Source of the DNA: Thioalkalivibrio sp. ALJT
GTDB taxonomy: Bacteria; Pseudomonadota; Gammaproteobacteria; Ectothiorhodospirales; Ectothiorhodospiraceae
Reading direction: 5' to 3'
DNA: 64,000 nt
Assembly: GCF_000381825.1 (NCBI RefSeq)
Contig: NZ_KB907125.1
Location: 62,001-126,000 of the forward strand
Below the pieces are notes generated by a model, which was not told the origin of the DNA, ran no database searches, and was given only the letters and a program-made list of their open reading frames with translations. Positions 14,730-49,188 of the stretch are shown one piece after another. The translations under genes were made by a program, and so were the position numbers. How positions within the stretch are numbered: position 1 is the stretch's first letter; every line of letters starts with the position of its first letter.

Positions 14730-14814
14730 TGGTGCAGATGGTGGGACTCGAACCCACACGGCTTGCGCCACTACCCCCTCAAGATAGCGTGTCTACCAAT
14801 TCCACCACATCTGC
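14730..14814 (-). tRNA. leuU: tRNA-Leu (anticodon GAG)
   Basis: The 85-base gene starts GCAGATG on the minus strand and ends with the matching CATCTGC acceptor strand, a discriminator A and an encoded CCA (14730-14732). It has the class II layout with a long variable arm, the T-loop sequence GGTTCGAGTCC, and a seven-base anticodon loop TTGAGGG closed by CTATC/GGTAG. The GAG anticodon is at 14778-14780 and reads CUC/CUU leucine codons. It follows secG in the same direction, as leuU does in E. coli, so it is probably co-transcribed with secG. Confidence 0.97.
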
Positions 14815-30781: not shown

Positions 30782-30975
30782 GGACGCGTCACTGCGGCGT
30801 TCGATTGTGGCCCGGTGGTACCCTTGAGCCTTAATTCTTCACCACGGGACCGAGTACTTCCGTTTCGCTGTGCATGTCCGTCTTCGAGCGGAAAGCCTAA
30901 AGATCCGGAGACTTCTCCCACCTGAACCTCAGGTTCAAGGTCAAAGGTCACGCCGGCGCCTGCGGGGCGCGTCCA
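30782..30975 (+). ncRNA. ssrS: 6S RNA
   Basis: 6S RNA binds sigma70 RNA polymerase in stationary phase by mimicking an open promoter. Blocks shared with the E. coli RNA are recognisable: CCCTTGAGCC, then CATGTCCGTC followed by GAGCGGAAAGCCTAAA, and CACCTGAACC...GGTTCAAGGTCA. The ends GGACGCGT (30783-30790 area) and GCGCGTCC (30967-30974) pair to close a long rod, giving about 194 nt against 184 in E. coli. fthC (ygfA) follows immediately, the classic ssrS-ygfA arrangement. Confidence 0.9.
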
Positions 30976-35842: not shown

Positions 35843-36709
35843 TCAAGTTCCCGACCAATGCTTCGACAGCGCCGTGACCAGGGGCTTCATGAAGTACTGG
35901 GCGTCCGGAATTACACCGGGCACGATACCCGCCGAGCGCAGCTCATTTGCAACCACCGGGCCAATAGCAGCTACCACGGTTCGATGCAGAGCGGCAATGA
36001 GCGCTTCTTCGCACCTCCGATCTCTTGCAACGCGCAACAACCGCCGGACCTGCGCCTGGCTGGTGAAGGCGATGGCATCCAGTCTCCCATCGGCCAGGGC
36101 CACGACCAATTCCGCCACACGATCGGTTTCTGCACCATCCGCGTAGCGATAAGGCGCCACGCAGCGCACCTCGGCCCCACGGTTCTCGAGGAAGTCGACC
36201 AATTTCCAGTTGGGTTCCTCCCCATAGAGCTGAACGCCAATGCGTGGCGCCATGTCCTTGCCGGTAGCCAGACCCACCTCGGCCAGGGTGTGGATGATGC
36301 CCTCCGTGGTCGGCACTGCGGCCACCGTATCCGGCACCACGCCGAACGGCTTCATCGCCCTTCCGGGTTTCGGCCCGCGCACCAAGGTCGGGGTCGCGCC
36401 CACGGCCGCCAGCCACGGGTCTTCCAGCCCGGAGCGCTGGGCAAAACCGGTCAGACGGGTGAAGCCCTCGCCGGTCAGGAAGATCATCCGGTCGAATGGC
36501 CGTTCAATCGCCTCGCGCAGCCAGGCCTCGACCGCCGTGCGATCCGGACTATCGTGGATTGCCACCAGCGGACAGCGCCACACCTTGGCCCCACGCCGCT
36601 CCAGCAGACCAGCCAGCACCTCCAGGGCGCGACTTTCCGGGATGGCAATCCGACGTCCGGCCAGTTCGCCCGCCAGTGCCTGCCCCACCTCCTGAGCGAC
36701 GGCCGTCAC
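35843..36709 (-). CDS. hemD: Uroporphyrinogen-III synthase, nitrate-assimilation type
   Basis: HemD closes hydroxymethylbilane with ring-D inversion to give uroporphyrinogen III, the branch point to siroheme. The 288-residue product has two alternating alpha/beta lobes, with GRRIAIPESRALEVLAGLLERRGA at the start, IFLTGEGF in the middle and DAIAFTSQAQVRRLL near residue 215. HemD is poorly conserved, so the call leans on context: it is the last gene of the nitrate operon and overlaps cysG by four bases. It may be a second hemD dedicated to siroheme for NirB. Confidence 0.85.
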   Translation of the reverse strand: MTAVAQEVGQALAGELAGRRIAIPESRALEVLAGLLERRGAKVWRCPLVAIHDSPDRTAVEAWLREAIERPFDRMIFLTGEGFTRLTGFAQRSGLEDPWLAAVGATPTLVRGPKPGRAMKPFGVVPDTVAAVPTTEGIIHTLAEVGLATGKDMAPRIGVQLYGEEPNWKLVDFLENRGAEVRCVAPYRYADGAETDRVAELVVALADGRLDAIAFTSQAQVRRLLRVARDRRCEEALIAALHRTVVAAIGPVVANELRSAGIVPGVIPDAQYFMKPLVTALSKHWSGT

Positions 36710-38163
36710 GCGGCGCTCGCGGCCGCCGTCTGTGGCCCTGGCATCGGCTGCGGGAAGGCGGCATCGGCACCGGCATCCGGTTTAAACCAGGCCAGGCGCT
36801 GGTGGCAGGCCGCCACATCGCCCACCACGATCAGACTCGGCGAACCGACCCCAGCGCGCTCCGCCTGGGTGGCCAGCGTATCCAATGTGCCCGACACCAC
36901 CCGTTGCTGGTTCGTGGTGCCGTTCTCGATGATCGCGGCCGGGGTGGACCCGGCGCGCTGTGCCACCCCCTTCAGACCCTGGCAGATTGCCGACAGGGCG
37001 CGCCGCCCCATGTAGAACACCAGCGTCTCATGTGGATCATTTAGCTGGTCCCAGTCCACATCCAGGCGGCCCTCGCGGGTGTGCCCGGTAATGAACCGCA
37101 CGGATTGGGCATGATCACGATGGGTCAGCGGGATCCCCGAATAGGCTGCGCAGCCACTGGCCGCAGTAATCCCGGGGACGACCTGGTAGGCCACGCCATC
37201 GGCCGCGAGGACGTCCAGCTCCTCGCCGCCACGCCCGAACACGAAGGGGTCCCCGCCCTTGAGGCGCGCGACCCGCTTGCCTTCGCGCGCCAGACGCGAG
37301 AGCAACGCGCTGATCTCTGCCTGCGGTACACAATGGCGATCACGCTCCTTTCCGACATAGAAGCGTTCCGCCTCGCGCCGGGCCAGGTTCACCACCTCGG
37401 AGGACACCAGCCGGTCGTAGACGACCACATCCGCCTGCTGCAGCAGGCGCAGCGCGCGAAAGGTCAGCAGGTCGGGATCGCCCGGCCCGGCGCCGATCAG
37501 GTAGACCTCGCCGGGCGTGCTGGTTGCGGCATCCGCCAGTTCCTGCTCCAGGCGCGCCTCGGCCGCGTCCATGCGCCCGGCCAGGGCGAGCTCGGTGGCC
37601 GGACCGGCAAAGGCCCGCTCCCAGAAGGCGCGGCGCGCGTTCACGTGGTCGAAACGGGCGCGCACCCGGTCGCGCAGCCGCCCGGCGAGATCGGCCAGCC
37701 GGCCATAGCCGGCCGGGATCAGGCTCTCGATCTTCGCGCGCAGCAGGCGAACCAGCACCGGGGCGCGGCCACCGGAGCCGATCGCAATGGTCAGCGGCCC
37801 GCGCTCCACGATCGCCGGCAGGATGAAGCTGCACAGCTCGGGCTGGTCGGCGACGTTCACCGGGATCGAGCGTACAACGCAGTCTTCGGAGACCTGGCGG
37901 TTCACCTCCGCGTCATCGGTCGCGGCGATCACGATCGCGACCCTATCCAGGCATTCGCTGTCATAGACACCCGGATCGCGGCTGATCGACCCCGGTTGTT
38001 CGCGCAGCAGGCGCTCGGCGGCCTCGCTGTACGCCGGGGCCCGCAGGCGCACCCGGGCCCCGGCCTCCAGCAGCAGCGCCGCCTTGCGCGTGGCGACCGG
38101 CCCGGCCCCAACCACCAGGGCCTCGCGGCCGTGCAACTGCATATAGATCGGCAGGTGTTCCAT
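36706..38163 (-). CDS. cysG: Siroheme synthase (uroporphyrinogen-III methylase / precorrin-2 dehydrogenase / ferrochelatase)
   Basis: CysG makes siroheme, the prosthetic group of NirB, from uroporphyrinogen III. The 485-residue product is the full fusion. The N-terminal NAD-binding dehydrogenase/chelatase half has ALVVGAGPVATRKAALLLEAGA. The C-terminal SAM-dependent methylase half starts near residue 217 with VYLIGAGPGDPDLLTFRAL, and also has RLKGGDPFVFGRGGEE and PGITAASGCAAYSGIPLTHR. It sits two bases after nasA, inside the nitrate assimilation operon. Confidence 0.96.
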   Translation of the reverse strand: MEHLPIYMQLHGREALVVGAGPVATRKAALLLEAGARVRLRAPAYSEAAERLLREQPGSISRDPGVYDSECLDRVAIVIAATDDAEVNRQVSEDCVVRSIPVNVADQPELCSFILPAIVERGPLTIAIGSGGRAPVLVRLLRAKIESLIPAGYGRLADLAGRLRDRVRARFDHVNARRAFWERAFAGPATELALAGRMDAAEARLEQELADAATSTPGEVYLIGAGPGDPDLLTFRALRLLQQADVVVYDRLVSSEVVNLARREAERFYVGKERDRHCVPQAEISALLSRLAREGKRVARLKGGDPFVFGRGGEELDVLAADGVAYQVVPGITAASGCAAYSGIPLTHRDHAQSVRFITGHTREGRLDVDWDQLNDPHETLVFYMGRRALSAICQGLKGVAQRAGSTPAAIIENGTTNQQRVVSGTLDTLATQAERAGVGSPSLIVVGDVAACHQRLAWFKPDAGADAAFPQPMPGPQTAAASAA

Positions 38164-38165
38164 GC

Positions 38166-40856
38166 TTATCCCTCCCGCGCCACGGGGTCCGTGGGCGCCT
38201 CGGCTTCCTCGTTCAACAGGGTCTGGATCTCGGGTCGGCAGGAGCCACAGTTGGTCCCCGCCTCAAGGGCCGAACCCACGGCCTCGCAGGTGGCAAGCCC
38301 CTGCTCGCGGATCGCAGTGCGGATGCGCGTCTCGTCCACGCCGAAGCAGGCGCAGACCATGCGCCCGCGCGCGGCCTGGCCGTTCGGTGGACGCCCGGTC
38401 AGGAGCGCCATGCGCTCGGTATCGCTGATCGTCTCGGCCGCGAACAGGCCGGCCAGCCACTCGCGCTCGGGCAAGCCCCGGTCGGGGCCCGCGAACAGCA
38501 CGCAGGCGAGCCGCCCCTCGTGGATCTGCGCGGCGCGGTAGCGCCCCCCGGCGGGGTCGGCGAACTCCAGCCATTCCCCCGGCCCGTCCAGGCGTTCGCG
38601 CCACGCATCCACCGTGGGCGGTGTGCCCCGCCCGGCCAGTTCGGTACGCAGGTGTCGGCGACCACGGGCGGTGACTGCGTAGTCCGACTCGGGCGTGGCG
38701 ATCGGCTCGCGGCTCAGCACGAAGCCGTGCCAGTCCAGCGCCGCCGGGCGCAAGGCCACGGCCGTGTGCTTGAATGCCGGCTGCCCGGAGACCGGGTCGA
38801 CATGCGCGGGCACCAGCGCATCGACCCGGGCGAGCCGCGCGATCGGCCGGCTCCAGTGCATGGGCACGAACACGCTGCCGGGGCGCTGCTCGCGGCTCAC
38901 CTGCACCCGCGCCAGCAGGCGACCGTGGCGACTGGTCACCTCGGCGAGATCGCCGGCCTGGACCCGGAACAGCCCGGCATCCACCGGATGGATCTCGACG
39001 AACGGTTCCGGCTGATGCGCACTCAGGCGCGGGGTGCGTGCGGTGCGGGTCATGCTGTGCCACTGGTCGCGGATGCGGCCGGTGTTCAGGCGCAGCGGAT
39101 ATTCGGCAGCGACCGGGTCGGTCGGGGCCTGCGGGGTCACGGCCGCGAGCTGCGCCCGGCCGCTGGCGGTGAAGAAACGGCCATCGGCGTAGAGGTGTTC
39201 GGCGCCCGTCCGGCTCCCCGCCGGCAGCGGCCACTGCACTGGCTCCAGGGCGTCGTACTCGGCGTCGGACAGCCTGGCCAGTGCGCCAATGTCGAAGTCG
39301 CGCGTGCCGTGGTTCTCGAAGGTGGACAGCGCCGCATGCTCGCGGAAGATCTCGCCCGGGCGGGTATAGGGAAAGGCGTCGGCGAAACCCAGCCGCTGCG
39401 CGACCCGGGCCAGCGCCCACCAGTCGTGCCGGGCCTCGCCCGGGGGCGCGCGGAACGGGCGCTGGCGCGAGATGCGGCGCTCGGAGTTGGTCACCGTGCC
39501 GTCCTTCTCGCCCCAGGTGGTCGCCGGCAGCAGTACGTCCGCCACCCGCGTGGTCTCGGTCTCGCGCACGCAGTCGGAGACCACGACCAGCGGGCATGCG
39601 GCCAGGGCCTGCTCGAAGCGCGCGGCTTCGGGCAGGCTGAACAGCGGATTGGTGCCGATGATCCAGACCGCCTTCACCTGCCCCGACTCGACCGCGCGGA
39701 ACAGGTCCAGCGCCTTAAGCCCCGGCTGGCGAGCAAGGTTGGGTGCGCCCCAGAAACGCCCGACCCGGTCCAGGTCCGCCTCGTCGAAGCCCATGTGCGC
39801 GGCCAGCTGGCTGGCCAGTCCGCCGACCTCGCGCCCGCCCATCGCATTCGGCTGGCCCGTCAGTGAGAACGGTCCCATGCCCGCGCGCCCGAGGCGGCCG
39901 GTGGCCAGATGCACGTTGAGGATCGCCCCGGCCTTGTCCACGCCGCTGTCAGACTGATTGATGCCCTGGCAGAAGGCGGTCACGGTGCGCTCGGTACGGG
40001 CAAACCACTGGAAGAACGTTGCCACGGCCTCCGGCTCCAGCTCGCAGGCCTCGGCGGTCGCGGCGATCGACGGGCTGGAGGCCCGCGCGGCCGCCAGGGC
40101 GTCGGCAAAGCCGTCGACATGGCGCTCCAGGAAGCCGGGGTCCAGCGCATCCTCCCGGCGCAGATGGTCCAGCAGGCCGTTGAACAGCCAGGCATCCGTG
40201 CCCGGCGCCAGCGGCAGGTGCAGGTCGGCCGCCTGGGCGGTGGCCGTGCGCCGCGGGTCGATCACCACCAGCTTCATCTCCGGGCGCGCCGCGCGGGCGG
40301 CCTGCAGGCGCTGGAACAGGACCGGGTGGGCCCAGGCCATGTTGGAGCCCGTGACCACGACCAGATCCGCCTGCTCGAGGTCGGTATAGCTCCCCGGCAC
40401 GCCATCCACACCGAAGGCACGGGTATGGGCGGCCACCGCCGTGGACATGCAGAGCCGGGAGTTGGTGTCGATATTGGCCGAGCCGATGAAGCCCTTCATC
40501 AGCTTGTTGGCGACGTAGTAATCCTCGGTCAGGATCTGCCCGGAGACGTACAGGGCGACCGCATCCGGCCCGTGTGCCGCGATGGTCTCGCGAAAGCCGT
40601 CCGCGACATGATCCAGCGCGGTCTCCCAGTCGACACGCCGCCCGCCGATCTCCGGGTGCAGCAGCCGGCCCTCGTCGCCGAGGGTCTCGGCCAGCGCCGC
40701 GCCCTTGGAGCACAGGCGCCCGGCATTCGCCGGATGGGCGGGGTCGCCGCGCACCGCGACCGGAAACTCGCCTTCCGGCGTCGCGGTCACCTCCACGCCG
40801 CAGCCCACCCCGCAATAGGGACAGGTCGTACGGGTCACCGGCTCGGGCGTGGCCAT
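38166..40856 (-). CDS. nasA: Assimilatory nitrate reductase catalytic subunit
   Basis: NasA is a cytoplasmic molybdopterin enzyme that reduces nitrate to nitrite for assimilation. The 896-residue product begins with the [4Fe-4S] ligand set CPYCGVGCGVEV and LCSKG. The molybdopterin domains follow, including the block NSRLCMSTAVAAHTRAFG, and a C-terminal dinucleotide-binding domain. The last 70 residues carry an extra BFD-like [2Fe-2S] module (VCACFGVDETRI and GTNCGSCRPEI), as in Klebsiella-type NasA. It lies one base from nirD and is translated with it. Confidence 0.95.
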   Translation of the reverse strand: MATPEPVTRTTCPYCGVGCGVEVTATPEGEFPVAVRGDPAHPANAGRLCSKGAALAETLGDEGRLLHPEIGGRRVDWETALDHVADGFRETIAAHGPDAVALYVSGQILTEDYYVANKLMKGFIGSANIDTNSRLCMSTAVAAHTRAFGVDGVPGSYTDLEQADLVVVTGSNMAWAHPVLFQRLQAARAARPEMKLVVIDPRRTATAQAADLHLPLAPGTDAWLFNGLLDHLRREDALDPGFLERHVDGFADALAAARASSPSIAATAEACELEPEAVATFFQWFARTERTVTAFCQGINQSDSGVDKAGAILNVHLATGRLGRAGMGPFSLTGQPNAMGGREVGGLASQLAAHMGFDEADLDRVGRFWGAPNLARQPGLKALDLFRAVESGQVKAVWIIGTNPLFSLPEAARFEQALAACPLVVVSDCVRETETTRVADVLLPATTWGEKDGTVTNSERRISRQRPFRAPPGEARHDWWALARVAQRLGFADAFPYTRPGEIFREHAALSTFENHGTRDFDIGALARLSDAEYDALEPVQWPLPAGSRTGAEHLYADGRFFTASGRAQLAAVTPQAPTDPVAAEYPLRLNTGRIRDQWHSMTRTARTPRLSAHQPEPFVEIHPVDAGLFRVQAGDLAEVTSRHGRLLARVQVSREQRPGSVFVPMHWSRPIARLARVDALVPAHVDPVSGQPAFKHTAVALRPAALDWHGFVLSREPIATPESDYAVTARGRRHLRTELAGRGTPPTVDAWRERLDGPGEWLEFADPAGGRYRAAQIHEGRLACVLFAGPDRGLPEREWLAGLFAAETISDTERMALLTGRPPNGQAARGRMVCACFGVDETRIRTAIREQGLATCEAVGSALEAGTNCGSCRPEIQTLLNEEAEAPTDPVAREG

Positions 40857-40857
40857 C

Positions 40858-41229
40858 TCAGCCCGCCTCGCGGCAGGCGACCGGCACCGCAGCGGTATCG
40901 TCCGCGGCGTCGCCCGTGACGCCGGAGAGGTCCAGCCACACCTGACCGTCGGTCACCCGGATCGGGAAGGCATGGGTGCAGCCACTGTCCGCCCCGGTGG
41001 CCTCGCCGGACTGCAGATCGATCACCCAGTTGTGCAGCGGGCAGGTCACGCGCTCGCCGTGAACGATGCCCTGCGACAGCGGCCCGCCCTTGTGCGGGCA
41101 CTGATCGCGCAGGGCAAACACGCGGTCATCCGCGGTGCGGAACACGGCGATGTCGCCGTTCGGGCCCGCCACCACGCGCGCACCCAGCGGCGGGATGTCC
41201 TCGAGCGGACAGATCGCGAGCCAGCTCAT
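40858..41229 (-). CDS. nirD: Nitrite reductase (NADH) small subunit
   Basis: NirD is the Rieske-like partner of NirB in the NADH-dependent siroheme nitrite reductase. The start MSWLAICPLEDIPPLGARV at 41229 gives 123 residues. Two ligand-type motifs, CPHKGGPL and CPLHNWVIDL, are present, so unlike some NirD proteins it could hold a real [2Fe-2S] cluster: Cys-X-His pairs are visible as DQCPH and CPLH. It overlaps nirB by four bases. Confidence 0.94.
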   Translation of the reverse strand: MSWLAICPLEDIPPLGARVVAGPNGDIAVFRTADDRVFALRDQCPHKGGPLSQGIVHGERVTCPLHNWVIDLQSGEATGADSGCTHAFPIRVTDGQVWLDLSGVTGDAADDTAAVPVACREAG

Positions 41230-43706
41230 GCCGACACCCCCTGGCGCGGGGTCGCGTCCACCGGCTTGATCGGGATGAACTCGTGCGCCGCATGCCCGGC
41301 GGCCCGCTCGGCCCAGGGGTCCACCTGCGCCACCTCCTGCGACTCCAGGAAGCGCGCGTACAGCGCGGCGCGGTTCTCGGCGTCGTCCACCAGGCGTTCC
41401 TTCACCCGCGTCAGCCCAACGCGCTCGATCCACGGGGCGGTGCGTTCCAGATAGCGCGCGTCTTCGCGGTAGAACTGCATGAAGGCCCCGGCATATTCGA
41501 GCACCTCGGTCTCGGTCTCCACCTTGCAGAGGAAGTCGGTGGCGCGCACCTTCACCCCGCCGTTGCCGCCCACGTGCAGCTCGTAGCCCGAGTCCACGCA
41601 GACCACGCCCAGGTCCTTGATCGTCGCCTCGGCGCAGTTACGCGGACAGCCGGAGACCGCCATCTTGAACTTGTGCGGGGTCCAGGAGCCCCAGGTCATC
41701 CGCTCCAGCTGGATGCCGAGCCCGGTCGAGTCCTGGGTGCCGAAGCGGCACCATTCGGAGCCGACACAGGTCTTCACCGTGCGCAAGGCCTTGCCGTAGG
41801 CATGGCCGGAGACAAACCCGGCGTCGCCGAGATCGCGCCACATCGCCGGCAGGTCGGTCTTTTGGACTCCCAGCAGGTCGATGCGCTGGCCACCGGTGAA
41901 CTTGACCGTGGGCACCTGGTAGCGCTCGGCCACCTCGGCGATCGCCCGCAGTTCGGCCGGCGTGGTCACCCCGCCCCAGATGCGCGGCACGACGGAATAG
42001 GTTCCGTCCTTCTGGATGTTGCCGTGGGCACGCTCGTTGATGAAGCGCGACTGCGCGTCGTCCCGGTAGTCCTTCGGCCAGGCCGCCAGCAGGTAGTAGT
42101 TGAGCGCCGGACGGCAGACATGGCAGCCGTTCGGGGTCTTCCAGTCGAGGGCCTCGAACACCGCCGGCATCGATTTCAGGCCATCGCGGGCAATAGCCGC
42201 ACGCACCTCGTCGTGGCTGTGATCGGTGCAGGCGCAGACCGGCTTTTTCGCCGGGGCGTCGGAGTAGTCGCCGCCCAGCGTGGTGGCAAGCACAGACTCC
42301 ACCAGCCCTGTGCAGGAGCCACAGGAGTTCGACGCCTTGGTGTAGGCGCGCACGTCCTCCAGCGTAAACAGCTTGTGCTCGCTGATCGCCTGGACGATCT
42401 CGCCCTTGCACACGCCATTGCAGCCGCAGATCTCGGCCTCGTCGGGCATGGCCGCGACCCGCGAGGCCTCGTCGCCGTGACCGGAGTCGCCGATATGCGC
42501 CTGGCCGAACAGCAGGTTCTCGCGGATGTCGGCCACCGGCGTTCCGTCCCGCATCAGCTGGAAGTACCAGGAGCCGTCCAGGGTATCGCCGTACAGCACG
42601 GCCCCCTGGATGCGGTTGTCCTTCAGCACCAGGCGCTTGTAGACGCCGCGCGCGGCATCCTTGAACACCAGGTCCTCGGTGGTCTCGTCGCCGGTGAAGT
42701 CGCCGGCGGAGAACAGGTCGATCCCGGTCACCTTCAGCTTGGTGGAGGTCATCGAGCCCTCGTAGCGCCCGATGCCGTACTCGGCCAGGTGGTTGGCGCA
42801 GACCTTCGCCTGCTCCCACAGCGGGGCGACCAGGCCGTAGGTGGCGCCACGGTGCTGCACGCACTCGCCGACCGCGTAGATCGACGGGTCATACGTCTGC
42901 ATGGTGTCGTTCACCACCACGCCGCGCTCGCAGTGCAGCCCGGCGGACGCGGCCAGCGCAGTGTTCGGGCGGATGCCAACCGCCATCACCACCAGATCGG
43001 CATCGACCTCGCTGCCGTCGGTGAAGCGCACGCCGGTGACACGGTCCTCGCCCAGGATCGCCTCGGTCTGGTGCGCCATGCGAAAACGCATGCCGCGCTC
43101 CTCCAGCGAGCCGCGCAGCATCCCGGCGGCCTCGGCATCCAGCTGGCGCTCCATAAGGTGATCCATCAGGTGCACCACGGTGACCTCCATACCCTGGCGC
43201 ATCAGGCCGTTGGCGGCCTCCAGGCCCAGCAGGCCGCCGCCGATCACCACCGCATGCCGATGTGCGCGGCTGGCGGCGAGCATCGCGTCCACGTCGTGGA
43301 TGTCGCGGAAGGCGACCACGCCCTCCAGTTCGTGCCCCGGCACCGGGATCATCACCGGATCGGAGCCGGTCGCCAGCAGCAGGCGGTCATAGGACGCCTC
43401 GGTGCCGTCCTCGGCGATCACCCGCCGGTTCACGCGGTCGACCCGTTCGATGCGCTTGCCTTTGTGCAGGGTGATGCCGCGTTCGGCATACCAGGCATCG
43501 TCGTTCAGCATGATCTCGTCGACGGTCTTCTCCGAGGCCAGCACCGGCGAGAGCATGATGCGGTTGTAGTTGCCCCAGGGCTCGGCACCGAACACGGTGA
43601 TGTCGTACATGTCCGGCTTGAGCTTCAAAAGCTCCTCGACCGTGCGCATCCCGGCCATGCCGTTGCCGATCAGGACCAGCCGCGGCTTCTCGTTCGCGGT
43701 GTCCAT
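41226..43706 (-). CDS. nirB: Nitrite reductase (NADH) large subunit
   Basis: NirB reduces nitrite to ammonium in the cytoplasm using NADH, FAD, iron-sulfur clusters and siroheme. The start MDTANEKPRLVLIGNGMAG at 43706 gives 826 residues. In order it has an FAD/NAD domain with GNGMAG and VVIGGGLLGLEAANG, two BFD-like [2Fe-2S] segments (CGCNGVCKG and CGSCTGLVE, then CACTDHSHDE), and a sulfite/nitrite reductase module. That module carries the siroheme-[4Fe-4S] ligands in TCVGSEWCRFGT and SGCPRNCAEA. It begins one base inside the nrtD stop codon (TGATG). Confidence 0.97.
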   Translation of the reverse strand: MDTANEKPRLVLIGNGMAGMRTVEELLKLKPDMYDITVFGAEPWGNYNRIMLSPVLASEKTVDEIMLNDDAWYAERGITLHKGKRIERVDRVNRRVIAEDGTEASYDRLLLATGSDPVMIPVPGHELEGVVAFRDIHDVDAMLAASRAHRHAVVIGGGLLGLEAANGLMRQGMEVTVVHLMDHLMERQLDAEAAGMLRGSLEERGMRFRMAHQTEAILGEDRVTGVRFTDGSEVDADLVVMAVGIRPNTALAASAGLHCERGVVVNDTMQTYDPSIYAVGECVQHRGATYGLVAPLWEQAKVCANHLAEYGIGRYEGSMTSTKLKVTGIDLFSAGDFTGDETTEDLVFKDAARGVYKRLVLKDNRIQGAVLYGDTLDGSWYFQLMRDGTPVADIRENLLFGQAHIGDSGHGDEASRVAAMPDEAEICGCNGVCKGEIVQAISEHKLFTLEDVRAYTKASNSCGSCTGLVESVLATTLGGDYSDAPAKKPVCACTDHSHDEVRAAIARDGLKSMPAVFEALDWKTPNGCHVCRPALNYYLLAAWPKDYRDDAQSRFINERAHGNIQKDGTYSVVPRIWGGVTTPAELRAIAEVAERYQVPTVKFTGGQRIDLLGVQKTDLPAMWRDLGDAGFVSGHAYGKALRTVKTCVGSEWCRFGTQDSTGLGIQLERMTWGSWTPHKFKMAVSGCPRNCAEATIKDLGVVCVDSGYELHVGGNGGVKVRATDFLCKVETETEVLEYAGAFMQFYREDARYLERTAPWIERVGLTRVKERLVDDAENRAALYARFLESQEVAQVDPWAERAAGHAAHEFIPIKPVDATPRQGVSA

Positions 43707-44506
43707 CACGCGGCCTCCGACTCGGGGTTCTTGTGGCGCTCGTGGAGAAAGCGCAGCACCTCGGCCCGGTAGTGGTTGTATTGCGCGTTGTCGGCCATCA
43801 CCAGGCGCTCGCGCGGCTTCGGCAGGTCGATCTCCAGGATCTCGCCGATGGTCGCGGCCGGGCCGTTGGTCATCATCACGATGCGGTCGGACAGCAGCAC
43901 CGCCTCGTCCACGTCGTGGGTGACCATCAGCACGGTGTTGCCCAACTCGGACTGGATGCGCATCACCTCGTCCTGCAGGTGCGCCCGGGTCAGCGCGTCC
44001 AGCGCGCCGAAGGGCTCGTCCATCAGCAGGACCTTCGGCTCCATCGCCAGCGCCCGGGCGATGCCCACGCGCTGCTTCATGCCGCCCGAGATCTCGTCCG
44101 GGCGCTTGTCCAGCGCGTGGCTCATGCCGACCATGTCCAGGGTCTGCAGGATCCACTCGCGCCGCTCGGCGGCGGACTTGGTGCCCTTGAATGTCTTGTC
44201 CACCGCCAGCGCCACGTTGTCGCGCACGGTCAGCCACGGCAGCAGGGAATGGTTCTGGAACACGACGCTGCGATCCGGGCCCGGCTTGCTGACCTCCTTG
44301 CCGTCCAGGATCACCGCGCCGGTGCTGGTCTCCAGCAGCCCGGCGACGATATTGAGCACCGTCGACTTGCCGCAGCCGGAGTGGCCGATGATGGAGATGA
44401 ACTCGCCGCGGTCCACGTGCAGGTCGACGTCGCGCAGCACCTCGCTGGCCGTCGGGCCTTCGCCGAAGGTCTTGTGGACGTGTTCGATGGAGAGATAGCT
44501 GGTCAT
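43706..44506 (-). CDS. nrtD: Nitrate ABC transporter ATP-binding protein
   Basis: This is the ATPase of an ABC nitrate/nitrite importer. The 266-residue product has Walker A GHSGCGKST, the Q-loop FQNHSLLPW, the signature SGGMKQRVGIARA, Walker B VLLMDEPFGALD and the switch His in VTHDVDEAV. PFGALDALTR and the LPW block are typical of the nitrate/sulfonate/taurate class. Context between nrtB and nirB supports nitrate. It lacks the C-terminal NrtA-like regulatory domain of cyanobacterial NrtC. Confidence 0.94.
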   Translation of the reverse strand: MTSYLSIEHVHKTFGEGPTASEVLRDVDLHVDRGEFISIIGHSGCGKSTVLNIVAGLLETSTGAVILDGKEVSKPGPDRSVVFQNHSLLPWLTVRDNVALAVDKTFKGTKSAAERREWILQTLDMVGMSHALDKRPDEISGGMKQRVGIARALAMEPKVLLMDEPFGALDALTRAHLQDEVMRIQSELGNTVLMVTHDVDEAVLLSDRIVMMTNGPAATIGEILEIDLPKPRERLVMADNAQYNHYRAEVLRFLHERHKNPESEAA

Positions 44507-44532
44507 GATGATTCTCCTGTGAGGGGGCCGGC

Positions 44533-45471
44533 TCAGCCGGCCTGCGTGCCGCGGGTGACCCAGTTGCCGACGATCGCGACCAGACGGTCGAGGAAGAACC
44601 CGACCAGGCCGACGTAGACCAGGGCCAGCACGATGTCGCTGAGCATGGAGGCGTTCCAGGCATCCCAGATGAAGAAGCCGATGCCGACCCCGCCGATCAG
44701 CATCTCGGCGGCGACGATCGCCAGCCAGGCGAGGCCGATGCCGATGCGCAGACCGGAGAAGACATACGGCGCGGCGGCCGGGAGCATGATCTTGGTGAAG
44801 TACTCGAAGCCGTTCAGGCGCAGCACGCGGGCCACGTTCACGTAGTCCTGCGAGATGTTCCGGATGCCGACCGAGGTGTTGATGATGATCGGCCAGATCG
44901 CGGTGATGAAGATCACGAAGATGGCCGACGGGTTGCTCGCCTGGAACGCGGCCAGGGAGATCGGCAGCCAGGCCAGCGGCGGCACGGTGCGCAGCACCTG
45001 GAACAGCGGGTCCAGCCCGCGCATCGCCCAGGTGGACTGGCCGACCAGCACCCCGAGACCGATCCCGGCCACCACCGCCAGGGCATAGCCGTAGGCCACC
45101 CGCTCGAGACTCGCGAGCAGCTGCCAGGCCATGCCCACGTCGTTGCCCCCGTGGTCATAGAACGGATTGACGATCAGTTCCCAGGTGTCGGTAATCACCT
45201 GACTCGGGCCGGGCAGTACGGCTCCCTGGGAGGACGTCATCATTTCCCACAGAAACAAAAAAATCGCGGTCACGATCACCGGGGGCAGGACCACGGTGGC
45301 CGCGTGGCGCATACGCCGACCCCAGAGCCCGGGGTCGGGCGGCGGGGCACCGCCGGACCGGGCCGACGGCGGGGCCGAGCGGGCCACCGGGGCCGTGGAG
45401 GTCTCCGCGGCCGCCGGGCGTTCGCGCCCGGCGCCGAAGGTCATGTTGCGATCGAGAATGGCACTCATCAT
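44533..45471 (-). CDS. nrtB: Nitrate ABC transporter permease
   Basis: This is the inner-membrane channel of the nitrate importer. The 312-residue product has a proline- and arginine-rich cytoplasmic N-terminus of about 50 residues, then six helices. The permease coupling motif is seen as EMLIGGVGIGFFIWDAWNA, and LRTVPPLAWLPISLAAF is typical of the NrtB/SsuC/TauC group. It lies 26 bases before nrtD and 45 bases after nrtA. Confidence 0.94.
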   Translation of the reverse strand: MMSAILDRNMTFGAGRERPAAAETSTAPVARSAPPSARSGGAPPPDPGLWGRRMRHAATVVLPPVIVTAIFLFLWEMMTSSQGAVLPGPSQVITDTWELIVNPFYDHGGNDVGMAWQLLASLERVAYGYALAVVAGIGLGVLVGQSTWAMRGLDPLFQVLRTVPPLAWLPISLAAFQASNPSAIFVIFITAIWPIIINTSVGIRNISQDYVNVARVLRLNGFEYFTKIMLPAAAPYVFSGLRIGIGLAWLAIVAAEMLIGGVGIGFFIWDAWNASMLSDIVLALVYVGLVGFFLDRLVAIVGNWVTRGTQAG

Positions 45472-45516: not shown

Positions 45517-46821
45517 TCAGGACGCGATCGCCTTGATCTCCAGGCTGTCGAGGTAGGCCTGCGGGTCTTCCGGATCGAAGACCTTGCCGTCGAAGAACGT
45601 TTCCTGGCCGCGCGAGGTGGATTCGGGGATGTCGGCCGAGTCGATGCCGAGCGTGGTGGCCGCCTCGCGCCAGATGTCCTCGCGGTTGACCTCGTCCACC
45701 AGGGCCTGCATGTCGAGGTCCGGCGGCAGGTAGCCCCAGCGGATGTCCTCGGTAAGGAACCACAGGTCGTGGCTCTTGAAGGGATAGGAGGCCTGGTCGT
45801 TCCAGTAGCGCATGCGGTCGGGGTGGTCCTCGACCACGCGGCCGGTGCCGTAGTCGAAGTGCCCCTGCATGCGGTCGATGATGTCGCCGTACGGGGCATG
45901 GATGTAGCGCCGGCGCGAGCAGATCTCGGCGACCTCCTCGATGTTCGCCGGGTCCTCGCAGTACATCTGCGCCTCCATCACCGCCATGGTCAGGGCGCGG
46001 GCCGCATTCGGGTTGGCCTCCACCCAGTCCGCGCGCATGCCCAGCGCCTTTTCCGGGTGGTTGTGCCAGAGCTCGCCGGTGGTGTTCGCGGTGTAGCCGA
46101 TGCCCTGATTGATCAGCTGCATGTTCCAGGGCTCGCAGACACAGAAGGTGTCCATGGAACCGACGCGCATGTTGGCGACCATCTGCGCCGGCGGGACGAC
46201 GATGGTGGCGATGTCGCGATCCGGGTCGATCCCGCCGGCGGCCATCCAGTAGCGGATCCACAGGTCATGGGTCCCGCCGGGAAAGGTCATCGCCGCGCGG
46301 ATGTCGTCACCGCCAGCGGCCTTCTCGGCCAGCGCGCCCTTGAACTCGGTAGTGTCGGTCCCGACCTTCAGGTCCGCGTATTCGTCGCCCACCGAGATGC
46401 ACTGCCCGGCCAGGTTCAGCCGCGCGAGGATCGTCATCGGCGTGCCACGGCGGTGCAGCAGGTAGGGCATCGGCGTCAGGATGTGCGAGCCGTCGATACC
46501 GCCGCGGCGCGAACCCAGTTCCAGGTTGTCGCGCACCGTGCCCCAGGAGGACTGCTTCAGCACCTGCACGTCGGGCATGCCATGGGCGGCGAAGAATCCC
46601 TTCTCCAGCGCGACGAACAGCGGCGCGGCGTCGGTCAGGGCGATAAAGCCCAGCTTCGCCTCGGTCGTCTCCGGCTTGCCGTTGCCGGCCTTTGCATAGC
46701 CCCAGGGCGCGGCCCCGGAAACACCCAGCGCGGTCGCGCCGATCCCGGCAGCCATGCCGCCCAGGAAACGCCGGCGCGACAGGCCGGAGGTCTTTTTCGT
46801 GTCGTTCGTGTGATCGGTCAT
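45517..46821 (-). CDS. nrtA: Nitrate ABC transporter substrate-binding protein, Tat-exported
   Basis: NrtA captures nitrate in the periplasm for the NrtBD importer. The start MTDHTNDTKKTSG at 46821 gives 434 residues, with GGGAG nine bases upstream. A twin-arginine signal LSRRRFLGGMAAGIGATAL occupies residues 14-35. The binding core follows with KLGFIALTDAAPLFVALEKGFF and FCVCEPWNMQLI. It is the first gene of the operon and lies behind a regulated leader. Confidence 0.95.
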   Translation of the reverse strand: MTDHTNDTKKTSGLSRRRFLGGMAAGIGATALGVSGAAPWGYAKAGNGKPETTEAKLGFIALTDAAPLFVALEKGFFAAHGMPDVQVLKQSSWGTVRDNLELGSRRGGIDGSHILTPMPYLLHRRGTPMTILARLNLAGQCISVGDEYADLKVGTDTTEFKGALAEKAAGGDDIRAAMTFPGGTHDLWIRYWMAAGGIDPDRDIATIVVPPAQMVANMRVGSMDTFCVCEPWNMQLINQGIGYTANTTGELWHNHPEKALGMRADWVEANPNAARALTMAVMEAQMYCEDPANIEEVAEICSRRRYIHAPYGDIIDRMQGHFDYGTGRVVEDHPDRMRYWNDQASYPFKSHDLWFLTEDIRWGYLPPDLDMQALVDEVNREDIWREAATTLGIDSADIPESTSRGQETFFDGKVFDPEDPQAYLDSLEIKAIAS

Positions 46822-46856
46822 TTCGGGTTCACTCCCCTTGTCAGCAAACACGTTCC

Positions 46857-46918
46857 AAAAACGAAAAAAGGCGTCGCATCAGCCCGGCCGCGTTTGCAGC
46901 CGGGTGATGGACGCCTTT
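46857..46918 (-). terminator. Attenuator (intrinsic terminator) in the nrtA leader
   Basis: On the minus strand AAAGGCGTC (46910-46918) pairs with GACGCCTTT (46867-46875). A GC-rich inner stem (CCGGCTGC/GCGGCCGG) sits in the loop, and the hairpin is followed by a T-tract. It lies 36 bases before the nrtA start, inside the transcribed leader, so it should stop nrt-nir-nas transcription unless prevented. Its 5' arm is shared with the second ANTAR-type hairpin. Confidence 0.9.
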
Positions 46919-46988
46919 GTCCAGTCCCACGGGAGGCCCGGTCGTCGGGTATCCCTGTTGTCAGGCGACGAACCGCCGTTGGCTCGTC
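46908..46988 (-). promoter_or_regulatory. Dual ANTAR-target hairpins (antiterminator) in the nrtA leader
   Basis: Hairpin P1 (46967-46988) has an eight-base stem including one G-U pair and the six-base loop AACGGC. Hairpin P2 (46908-46923) has the five-base stem TGGAC/GTCCA and the loop AAAGGC. Both loops have A at position 1 and G at position 4, the known hallmark of ANTAR protein targets. P2 uses the bases of the 5' arm of the attenuator, so forming P2 blocks the terminator. NasR, encoded just upstream, is an ANTAR protein. P1 begins about four bases after the predicted start site. Confidence 0.8.
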
Positions 46989-47001
46989 TTGCCGATACTC
47001 T

Positions 47002-47017
47002 TGCAGGAGGTGTGCCA
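47002..47017 (-). promoter_or_regulatory. Sigma54 (-24/-12) promoter of the nitrate assimilation operon
   Basis: The minus strand reads TGGCACACCTCCTGCA, with GG and GC in the exact 12-base register required by sigma54. Six of the first six -24 bases (TGGCAC) match consensus. The start would be near 46991, giving a 170-base leader. An ATTAGC-N4-GCTAAT palindrome (47018-47033) lies directly upstream and is unexplained. Confidence 0.85.
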
Positions 47018-47128
47018 ATTAGCTATTGCTAATCGACCGAGAGGGCTCAAAGCCCATCCTGACGCGGAAAAATCGGACGGTTCCCGATACTCAATCGAAT
47101 CTTCACAGGGGAATATCACTCGCAAGCG

Positions 47129-47175
47129 GCACCACCCTGGGGCACACCGGCGGTGCAGATGAACCGCGCTGGTGC
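47129..47175. promoter_or_regulatory. Three NtrC-like enhancer sites
   Basis: Compared with the NtrC pattern GCACC-N5-GGTGC, three sites each differ at one base: GCACCACCCTGGGGC (47129-47143), GCACACCGGCGGTGC (47142-47156) and GAACCGCGCTGGTGC (47161-47175). Their centres lie about 145, 158 and 177 bases upstream of the predicted sigma54 start, a normal enhancer distance. Confidence 0.65.
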
Positions 47176-47180
47176 ACTAC

Positions 47181-47261
47181 CTGTAGGAGCCGCCTTGGCG
47201 GCGAAGCCCCTGCCAGTGGCGGACACTGGCAGGGGCTTCGCGGGCAAGCCCGCTCCCACAG
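47181..47261. repeat. REP-like pair forming one long hairpin downstream of nasR
   Basis: CTGTAGGAGCCGCC-TTGGCGGCGAAG (from 47181) faces CTTCGCGGGCAAGCCCGCTCCCACAG (to 47261). The centre adds a perfect 12-base repeat, CCCCTGCCAGTG/CACTGGCAGGGG. The whole 81 bases can fold as a single rod 39 bases after the nasR stop and just upstream of the NtrC-like sites. It may stop nasR transcripts from entering the nrt control region. Confidence 0.75.
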
Positions 47262-47299
47262 GGGCACCCCCCAGCGGCATCTCTTTCCCGGGGAATGGG

Positions 47300-48613
47300 C
47301 TACAGGCCGCCCTTGCCCAGCAGATCGGACATCGCAACGGTCGCCTCGGCGACCTCGGCCAGGCGCCGGTTCTGGTTCATCGCCGTCTGGCGCAGGAGTT
47401 TGTACGCCTGGTCCTCGCTGAGGCCGCGGTGCTGGATCAGCAATGCCTTGGCACGCTCGATGGTCTTGCGCTCGGCCAGGGCCTGGCGTGCCGCATGCAG
47501 CTCGTCCTCCACCGACTGCAGCCGGGCCGCCTGGCGCTGCACCAGGTCCATCACCGAGTGCCCGACGATGGGTACGTTGAGTGCGGCATCGCCCTCCTCC
47601 TGCGCGGGCTCCAGGCCCTCCGGCGCCCCGAAAAACACCGCATACGGCACGCTGCCGCGCAGCTCCGACTCGGCGAGTTGCGCGACCCGGTCACGTACCG
47701 CGCCCAAGTCCGCGCGATCCGCCGTGATCCGTGCCGAGCAGCACTCGTTCAGGTGCATCTCCAGCAGGTCCTCGACCTCCTTCATCGCGTCGATGCGCGC
47801 AGTGGTGCAGGCAAACCATTCCTCGGCACGGGCCGGGTCGTGGTGCCCGGAGGCCTCGGTACAGGCGCGCCGGCGCAGACGCTCGATGTCCGCCGCGAAG
47901 GCCGCCGTCTGCAGCTCGCGCCAGGCGGCACAGGCCGCCGGTGCCGCGAACTCGGAGAAGATGCGGAACGCCCGTTCCTGGGCATCGATGCGATGAACCA
48001 GCGCCTGGCGCAGCTCGGGCTCGAAACTCGCGGCCCCGAACCCGGCGGCCCCGATCGCGCGCTCCTGCCCTGCCAGCTCCTTGCCCTGCATGAAGTTCAA
48101 CAGGGCTACCAGGGCCCGCGAGACCTCGGGATCGGTCGCCGAATCCGCGGCCTCGAACACCACGGCCATCAGGGCACGAATCAGCTCGCTGAAACCGCGG
48201 GTTGAGTCCATCGGGCTGAGGGTCTGCTCCAGCACCTCCTCGCGCAGGCTGCCCAAGCCGGACAGGCCATGCAGCGCCAGCGCCATGCGCCCCAGCAGTC
48301 GGCTGCGCCCATGGGCGCAGGCGTCCGGTGCCAGCCAGCCATCCAGGTGCTCGCGGAACGCGGCCGCGGCGGCGTCCGATTCGGCGCGGTATTGCTCCAG
48401 TTCGCGGGTATAGCGCTGGCCACCGGACCCGATCCAGAGGCTGGATGCCCCGCGCTCGCGCTGCAGGGCATGCACCAGCGCGCGGATGCGCCCGACCAGC
48501 TGCACCGCCTCCAGCAGGCGCTCCAGGGTCACCACCTCGCACTTGCGCGAGGCGACCAGGAAATCGCCAATGGAGTCTTCGAAGGAAAAACTCGGGGATG
48601 TGTTCTGGGTCAT
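47300..48613 (-). CDS. nasR: Nitrate/nitrite-sensing ANTAR antiterminator NasR
   Basis: NasR senses nitrate and nitrite in the cytoplasm and binds leader RNA to prevent termination. The start MTQNTSPSFSFED at 48613 gives 437 residues. An N-terminal NIT domain covers about residues 40-330, with RALVHALQRERGASSLWIGSGG, and is all-helical as expected. A short linker and a C-terminal ANTAR domain follow (RQALAERKTIERAKALLIQHRGLSEDQAYKLLRQTAMNQ region, core ERAKALLIQ). It is transcribed in the same direction as nrtA, ends 479 bases upstream of it, and its likely target hairpins lie in that gap. Confidence 0.93.
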   Translation of the reverse strand: MTQNTSPSFSFEDSIGDFLVASRKCEVVTLERLLEAVQLVGRIRALVHALQRERGASSLWIGSGGQRYTRELEQYRAESDAAAAAFREHLDGWLAPDACAHGRSRLLGRMALALHGLSGLGSLREEVLEQTLSPMDSTRGFSELIRALMAVVFEAADSATDPEVSRALVALLNFMQGKELAGQERAIGAAGFGAASFEPELRQALVHRIDAQERAFRIFSEFAAPAACAAWRELQTAAFAADIERLRRRACTEASGHHDPARAEEWFACTTARIDAMKEVEDLLEMHLNECCSARITADRADLGAVRDRVAQLAESELRGSVPYAVFFGAPEGLEPAQEEGDAALNVPIVGHSVMDLVQRQAARLQSVEDELHAARQALAERKTIERAKALLIQHRGLSEDQAYKLLRQTAMNQNRRLAEVAEATVAMSDLLGKGGL

Positions 48614-48689
48614 GCTCGTCGTCCGTGGATGATTCCCGGAATCAGCAAGCATGCGATGTGCCAGCTCTAATAACTGGCGGCGAGATTGC

Positions 48690-48724
48690 AAAAAAAACGG
48701 GCGGGTGTGCAGGGCCCCGCCCGT
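48690..48724 (-). terminator. Intrinsic terminator downstream of the DsrE-like gene
   Basis: On the minus strand the nine-base stem ACGGGCGGG/CCCGCCCGT with a ten-base loop is followed by eight Ts. It lies 17 bases after the stop of the DsrE-like gene and 77 bases before nasR, so nasR is not simply a read-through of that gene. Confidence 0.88.
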
Positions 48725-48740: not shown

Positions 48741-49097
48741 TCAGAAGCTCATGGAGCGGTCAAACTCGGCGACGGCCTGGACGTAGTGGCCCATGCCGGC
48801 AATCTCGGCGTTCGGCAGGAAGTTGTGCTCGCCGACATCGCGGCCCTTGGCGCAGGCCTCGCAGACCCAGAACGGGACACCGGCCTCGACCAGCGAATCC
48901 ACAATGCCCTGCATCGCCGGCATGTTGTGGCCGACGATCTTGTCGTACACGTTGCGATTGGCAATGTTCACGGCCTCGCCCTGCAGCCAGACGGTCACGT
49001 CGTGGCCCTGCTGCTTCGCCACATTCGCGGCGATCATGCCCAGCGTGGCACGGGTAGGGTCGTCAGTACCGGCGGTAACAGCAACAATAAAGCGCAT
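48741..49097 (-). CDS. DsrE-family protein
   Basis: The 118-residue product from MRFIVAVTAGTDDPTRATLG is a DsrE/DsrF-like (YchN-type) fold. Family members handle sulfur-relay or tellurite chemistry; in sulfur oxidisers they often carry persulfides. Two cysteines in FWVCEACAKGRDV around residue 78 could be functional. GGGAG upstream supports the start. It has its own terminator and no obvious operon partner, so its role is open. Confidence 0.82.
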   Translation of the reverse strand: MRFIVAVTAGTDDPTRATLGMIAANVAKQQGHDVTVWLQGEAVNIANRNVYDKIVGHNMPAMQGIVDSLVEAGVPFWVCEACAKGRDVGEHNFLPNAEIAGMGHYVQAVAEFDRSMSF

Positions 49098-49188
49098 GGG
49101 GTTCTCCCGAGGTTGAAAAGGATGGCAGAACGGTAGCGACGCAGAGGCATCGCGTCGATTTCCCACAAACCGCAGACCAGCACTCGCG

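Follow-up and report, generated by a model that had tools for sequence, protein, structure and literature searches.

A probable Klebsiella nasF-type control region with a long, helix-containing linker ahead of the nitrate-assimilation operon of Thioalkalivibrio sp. ALJT

The DNA between nasR and the nitrate-assimilation operon of the sulfur-oxidizing bacterium Thioalkalivibrio sp. ALJT very probably combines two inputs, NtrC and NasR antitermination, in a control region like that of Klebsiella nasF. Control of this type is already in print; the novel part, a modest one, is a long linker between the two recognition hairpins that holds a conserved third helix, which is itself no ANTAR site. We analyzed one 64-kb stretch of the genome (the window), in which the elements of the leader lie on the minus strand within 46822-47176. 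The two-input reading draws on the domains and residues of NasR, the gene content, a hairpin tandem found beyond chance expectation, the co-occurrence of leader and NasR, the computed displacement of the second hairpin, the leaders of relatives, and synteny with Klebsiella.

On the upstream side, nasR (47300-48691, minus strand, start codon uncertain) encodes the expected antiterminator, a protein with both a NIT and an ANTAR domain (Pfam, 195 and 66 bits) and the sole ANTAR match in the genome. Its best structure match is NasR (4akk, E = 1.6e-58), and it is 36% identical to K. pneumoniae NasR; the ten closest named NasR loci (83-98% identity), among the best 80 of 132 relatives, all belong to Thioalkalivibrio. 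Numbered as in 4akk by an offset fitted in this analysis, nine of 13 residues named for RNA binding or autoinhibition are identical (E191, R193, Q194, D201, R340, K341, K347, R366, and N373), and differences are found at Q204E, K345R, E359D, and W362Y. As described in PMC7496416, NasR K345R bound RNA like the wild type, and NIT-ANTAR proteins carry aromatic residues other than F at position 362. Judged from its residues, the protein thus appears equipped for RNA binding and autoinhibition, and we counted it so. A DsrE-family gene (48741-49166) lies directly upstream of nasR on the same strand; in the Klebsiella record a DsrE/DsrF/TusD gene also adjoins nasR, but in the opposite orientation.

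The first gene past the switch is nrtA (45517-46821, minus strand), which encodes a substrate-binding protein (Pfam NMT1_2, 337 bits) and was named by position; the syntenic Klebsiella gene is annotated CmpA/NrtA. The remaining operon (36706-45471, minus strand) carries nrtB, an nrtC/D ATPase gene, nirB, nirD, a nasA-like reductase gene, and cysG. Matches of the nasA-like molybdopterin reductase fell below equivalog cut-offs, and its name comes from context. Elsewhere in the window, Rfam gathering scores place a 6S RNA at 30786-30971 and a tRNA gene at 14733-14814.

A sequence-only reading of this DNA had claimed three near-consensus NtrC sites and a -24/-12 promoter in perfect register ahead of nrtA, and both claims hold. 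Against the NtrC consensus TGCACC-N5-GGTGCA, site A (47160-47176, minus strand) agrees at 11 of 12 positions, and sites B (47141-47157) and C (47128-47144), on the same strand, each at 10 of 12. Site A is the sole 11/12 match in 64 kb, and 12 places in the window score exactly 10/12. Sites A and C lie 32 bp apart, center to center, a spacing that recurs in NtrC-like pairs of nine of 11 Thioalkalivibrio regions; in other lineages, pairs 30-31 bp apart occur in regions L016, L044, L047, L049, L053, L054, L122, L123, and L124. With a cutoff of at least 9/12 within 200 nt upstream of the promoter, 60 of 78 regions show NtrC-like sites, where shuffles predict 12.0, and 18 show none. The sigma54-type promoter, TGGCACACCTCCTGCA (47017-47002, minus strand), fits 10 of 11 fixed positions with GG-N10-GC spacing, and all 16 letters recur unchanged in every aligned Thioalkalivibrio region but L040 (10 of 11). 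Two other sites in the window score just as high, so a promoter match of this quality is not rare in itself. In the genome, one protein passes the ntrC cut-off and there is a single rpoN; the -24/-12 element, paired upstream sites, ntrC, and rpoN expected of an NtrC-activated sigma54 promoter are thus all present. The predicted transcription start lies near 46991, 12 nt from the -12 C and about 3 nt ahead of the first hairpin.

Two further features flank these elements. Directly upstream of -24 lies a dyad, TTAGC-N4-GCTAA (47019-47032), possibly the site of some regulator. Of the 11 aligned Thioalkalivibrio regions, seven have it exactly and four in altered form, and the genome contains one exact extended copy; its use as a regulon mark was dropped, a second copy with one mismatch lying in a stretch with no visible -24/-12 element. 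Between nasR and the NtrC-like sites is an REP-like palindrome (47181-47261) with 53 genome matches listed, some of them the two strands of one place; related sequence occupies the same place in most but not all aligned Thioalkalivibrio regions. MicroRNA-named Rfam matches at 47179-47263 fall on this palindrome and were rejected.

The leader RNA contains the two hairpins with loops AACGGC and AAAGGC that the sequence-only reading had described. P1, GACGAGCC[AACGGC]GGTTCGTC (46988-46967, minus strand), has 8 bp, with the first loop base (A1) at 46980. P2, TGGAC[AAAGGC]GTCCA (46923-46908, minus strand; loop 46918-46913), has 5 bp and would serve as the antiterminator. The intrinsic terminator (46918-46864, minus strand) combines a 23-bp stem with one bulge (46918-46867) and six T (46869-46864); as had been claimed, its 5' arm consists of the loop and 3' stem of P2 and begins at the first loop base. 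In an alignment of 10 distinct Thioalkalivibrio leaders, 100% of cells are paired in P1, 98% in P2, and 99.1% in the terminator; loop positions A1 and G4 are invariant, position 3 of the P1 loop varies, and both loops are C:G-closed in all 10. Loss of A1/G4 in orthologous leaders, which the earlier reading had named as grounds for refutation, is therefore not seen in this set. Tandem C:G-closed AxxGxx hexaloops with an overlapping terminator occur at one place in the window, both strands scanned, compared with 0.03 per window in 100 dinucleotide shuffles.

These features agree with the dual-hexaloop ANTAR-target definition as set out in PMC3369931 (stems of at least 3 bp, six-base loops, A1/G4, and a variable linker), and P1 and P2 both have the C:G loop closure described for NasR SELEX in PMC7496416. 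In computed folding P2 also overlaps and excludes the terminator, as expected of an ANTAR target. P1, the core of the linker helix (Pm), and P2 each reach a probability of at least 0.95 at seven RNA lengths from 86 to 112 nt, after which P2 falls to 0.42 at 116 nt and 0.00 at 120 nt as the 3' arm of the terminator emerges. Isolated energies are -11.9 (P1), -12.1 (Pm), -5.6 (P2), and -41.3 kcal/mol (terminator). P2 is thus predicted to be short-lived during elongation unless held, and the mechanical switch proposed earlier from the P2-terminator overlap is clear in the model. The published behavior of NasR on the nasF leader, with read-through of 52% with nitrate and 5% without as given in PMC7496416, fits such a short-lived P2. 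Between Pm and P2, the sequence GGGAC (46924-46928) is invariant in 10 of 10 leaders, even though none of the three helices includes it; some prefix folds extend P2 by pairing the GGG of this sequence with CCC in the terminator stem.

Among known systems, Klebsiella nasF shares with the window the gene order nasR-leader-nrtA(nasF)-nrtB, a -24/-12 element (K. pneumoniae record), A1/G4 hexaloops in P1 and P2, and a P2 that overlaps the terminator. In the K. pneumoniae leader the linker is 9 nt (25 nt from loop to loop) and a U-G pair closes P2, whereas the window leader has 43 nt (62 nt loop to loop) with Pm and closes P2 with C:G. Joint control by Ntr and NasR is described for Klebsiella (PMC5424462), and NtrBC acts together with NasR in the account of Azoarcus in PMC8467165. 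The eut leaders of Enterococcus likewise have two A1/G4 hexaloop hairpins, with P2 and terminator mutually exclusive, but EutV receives its signal through response-regulator phosphorylation, and linkers longer than 5-12 nt fail (PMC3369931, PMC8934654). The nas leaders under NasS-NasT in Paracoccus also show nitrate-responsive ANTAR antitermination ahead of nas genes (PMC5424462); there, sensor and antiterminator are two proteins, whereas the window encodes a single NIT-ANTAR protein.

Two Rfam families come close to the leader, and membership in either was rejected, both scores lying below gathering. P11 (RF00625) aligns with 46870-47029 on the minus strand, promoter included, at 36.3 bits against a gathering score of 70, and narK RNA (RF03032) aligns with 46957-47016 on the minus strand at 30.3 against 43.2. 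A genome search with P11 (E <= 1) returned this place only, but was also positive in six of 14 control genomes and so says little. No gathering-score match was found at L015, L016, L017, L043, L044, L048, L056, L068, L074, L107, or L124; the NasR leaders of these 11 loci are therefore unannotated in Rfam, and the window leader is below threshold as well.

The leader tracks NasR across the genus. R1, a covariance model built on the 10 distinct Thioalkalivibrio leaders, finds it in 15 of 30 genus genomes, the same 15 that have a NasR match with E below 1e-100; among the remaining 15, two have weak partial NasR matches (G030, G032). Each leader is a single sense copy directly ahead of the nas operon, and a weaker second match in many genomes is the opposite strand of the same place. 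No match to the leader was found in the E. coli collection.

Beyond the genus, regions came from named genomes (best 80 of 132 loci), the family (47 genomes), and a class sample (369 genomes), in which 11 genomes had NasR at E <= 1e-30. We retained 90 regions downstream of nasR, requiring a NasR alignment that extends to residue 448 or further and a minimum of 400 nt of following sequence; repeats were removed only among those with P2. The set excludes loci truncated by a contig end (such as L013, L039, and L103) as well as matches that are partial or distant (L018-L031). In 80 of the 90, a P2 overlaps a terminator, and 76 of those 80 have P1 as well (for L106, both were placed by hand). By these rules 10 regions have no P2 (L055, L059, L091, L092, L094, L095, L100, L126, L127, and L128), and four with P2 have no P1 (L064, L073, L125, and L130). 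Because A1/G4 were search criteria both here and in the tandem scan of the window, those counts show no conservation of the two bases. When the choice of P2 instead ignored the first four letters of its loop, it succeeded in 52 of 90 regions, and all 52 have both A1 and G4. This choice used a strict 8-of-8 pairing rule that takes in loop positions 5 and 6; it missed 38 of 90 regions, including all 11 from Thioalkalivibrio, probably because of the terminator bulge. Six further nasR loci came from plasmid records (Klebsiella, Pantoea, Erwinia, Burkholderia pyrrocinia, Pseudoalteromonas, and Azospirillum). The P1-P2-terminator leader is present in the first three. In B. pyrrocinia (L137), between nasR and a formate/nitrite transporter gene, a P2-like loop reads AACAGC, position 4 being A instead of G, a counter-example to G4 from outside the 52-region set. 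The leader was not found in two scanned Pseudoalteromonas stretches, and Azospirillum nasR was left out of the scan because nitrate genes do not follow it.

The linker is where the window leader departs most from published ANTAR targets. The sequence-only reading had remarked that 43 bases is long and might hold an extra element; the count is exact (46966-46924), and the linker contains Pm (46931-46955, minus strand), a helix with a 5-nt loop and two mismatched pairs in the window copy. Linkers are 43-44 nt in all 11 Thioalkalivibrio regions. Across the 10 distinct leaders, 92% of Pm cells are paired and five of ten pairs are invariant, with one A-U to U-A change. Over P1, Pm, and P2 together, two pairs are changed on both sides; 17 of 500 shuffles match this, so covariation is weak evidence. 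Pm was rejected as a third ANTAR site in Thioalkalivibrio, since its loop has 3 or 5 nt in computed folds (8 nt in L033) and no C:G-closed AxxG hexaloop occurs at Pm in any of these leaders.

Long, mostly folded linkers are found repeatedly in several lineages. Among the 76 leaders, linker length is 9-16 nt in 43, 19-44 nt in 32, and 76 nt in one (L129, whose P1 is uncertain); none falls between 16 and 19, and the division at 19 nt was set after the lengths had been seen. Polaromonas and Pseudorhodoferax linkers form stems of their own, and B. pyrrocinia L137 has a folded 38-nt linker (-16.4 kcal/mol). EutV, for its part, has linkers of 5-12 nt in nature and is described as inactive with 14 nt or with 20 nt added (PMC3369931, PMC8934654).

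Taken with the published work on NasR and EutV, these elements suggest the following sequence of events. Under nitrogen limitation, phosphorylated NtrC bound upstream would drive the sigma54 promoter, as the sites, promoter, and gene content imply. In the nascent RNA, P1 would fold first, followed by Pm and P2. If neither nitrate nor nitrite is present, P2 is predicted to give way to the 3' arm of the terminator, and polymerase would stop some 125 nt past the predicted start. When either is present, NasR would be released from autoinhibition and, by analogy, bind the A1/G4 loops of P1 and P2; with P2 held, the terminator could not form and the operon would be read. The 43-nt linker, folded as Pm, would stand in for the short linker of other leaders. 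The NtrC-plus-NasR interpretation offered earlier is thus supported as far as sequence can tell, given the neighboring NIT-ANTAR gene and the single ntrC and rpoN.

The point most in dispute is the linker. Our tentative preference is that Pm brings P1 and P2 close enough for one NasR dimer; Pm appears to be a conserved structure, for which the role of a ruler is plausible. The switch might equally operate as described with a helix that has no role, NasR tolerating long linkers and a GC-rich spacer folding on itself, and this we regard as a serious possibility, though short of an even chance. It would account for a window linker no more stable than its shuffles (p = 0.14), for further linkers that do not beat theirs (L124, p = 0.17; L086, 0.22; L106, 0.37), and for the C. 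koreensis-type linkers L108 and L111, which barely fold (p = 0.78 and 0.80). Nor is the count of unpaired linker bases below chance relative to shuffles, and one Pm pair is broken in six of 10 leaders. Against a role-less helix, nine of 11 Thioalkalivibrio linkers are more stable than dinucleotide shuffles at p < 0.05, and eight lineages, represented by one linker each (the first listed), combine to p = 0.004 (Fisher) or 0.002 (Stouffer). Five Zoogloeaceae keep a GTTCG/CGAAC stem while the linker ranges from 21 to 40 nt, and the failure of lengthened EutV linkers also weighs on the side of a function.

Other alternatives touch the two inputs themselves. That the sigma54-dependent promoter answers to another activator, or to a further regulator and not NtrC alone, is unlikely but deserves notice: besides ntrC itself, the ntrC model gives 12 other matches in this genome above 280 bits, presumably activators of the same class, and the dyad sits beside -24. 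The dyad, however, has one exact genome copy, the spacing of NtrC-like sites here and in nine regions elsewhere favors NtrC, and an ntrBC knockout in Azoarcus olearius lowers assimilatory nitrate reductase expression as described in PMC8467165. It is improbable that the terminated RNA is itself the product, titrating NasR as EutX/Rli55 does EutV, with operon attenuation a side effect. A small RNA sequestering EutV is in print (PMC8934654), and P11, the nearest Rfam match though below gathering, is filed as a Pseudomonas sRNA; yet the only sense copy that R1 detects in each genome stands immediately before the nas operon, and a single ANTAR protein leaves no second target to compete. Least credible, and very improbable, is a plain terminator of a short transcript on which NasR does not act, given that P1 and P2 fit the published recognition pattern and adjoin nasR and that leader and NasR co-occur (15 and 15 of 30 genomes).

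A second class of leaders bears on the possible ruler role. In 33 leaders, mostly from Variovorax, Xenophilus, and Pseudacidovorax, P1 and P2 lie 27-31 nt apart, and an extra hairpin, usually with a GACC/GGTC stem, lies near the RNA 5' end, where P1 lies elsewhere. Its loop is AxxGxx in seven of the 33, GxxGxx in 14 (five of which, GGCGAC, can also be read as GNRA tetraloops), and of other kinds or not a hexaloop in 12. Three tandem hairpins with A1/G4-type hexaloops, 28-29 nt apart, are found in L074, L078, L096, L101, L107, L109, and L110. On a tree of 75 NasR proteins, a quick one with long branches, leader classes are clustered, requiring 5 changes compared with 32.0 for shuffled labels; L124 was left out because its NasR lies in two pieces. 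In the open full-text literature searched, no ANTAR leader was found described as three-hairpin or helix-linked.

A speculative scheme, which we consider rather doubtful, would unite these classes: in their basic design, NasR leaders would be RNAs with three hairpins, any two of which can carry the ANTAR loops while the third serves as a structural ruler, the ANTAR dimer reading spatial distance and not linker length. If true, the part of ruler would fall to the middle hairpin in Thioalkalivibrio, Zoogloeaceae, and Polaromonas, and the 5' hairpin would have been freed in the relatives of Variovorax, where three AxxG loops persist in seven of 33 leaders; a long linker would then function solely by virtue of a helix that bridges the distance from P1 to P2.

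The linker of the window leader departs from the short-linker rule derived from EutV. A survey of actinobacterial ANTAR targets kept linkers of 2-25 nt only (PMC8164766), a rule absent from the 2012 definition; at 43 nt, the window leader falls outside this range and would be missed by such a survey. The P1/P2 model with A1 and G4 is described in PMC3369931 and in the commentary PMC3369936. On whether an ANTAR dimer engages the two hairpins at once or in turn, the 2012 and 2022 papers disagree; successive, not simultaneous, binding is proposed in PMC8934654. The natural linkers of 9 to 44 nt in NasR leaders form a series for testing joint versus sequential binding of P1 and P2 by an ANTAR dimer.
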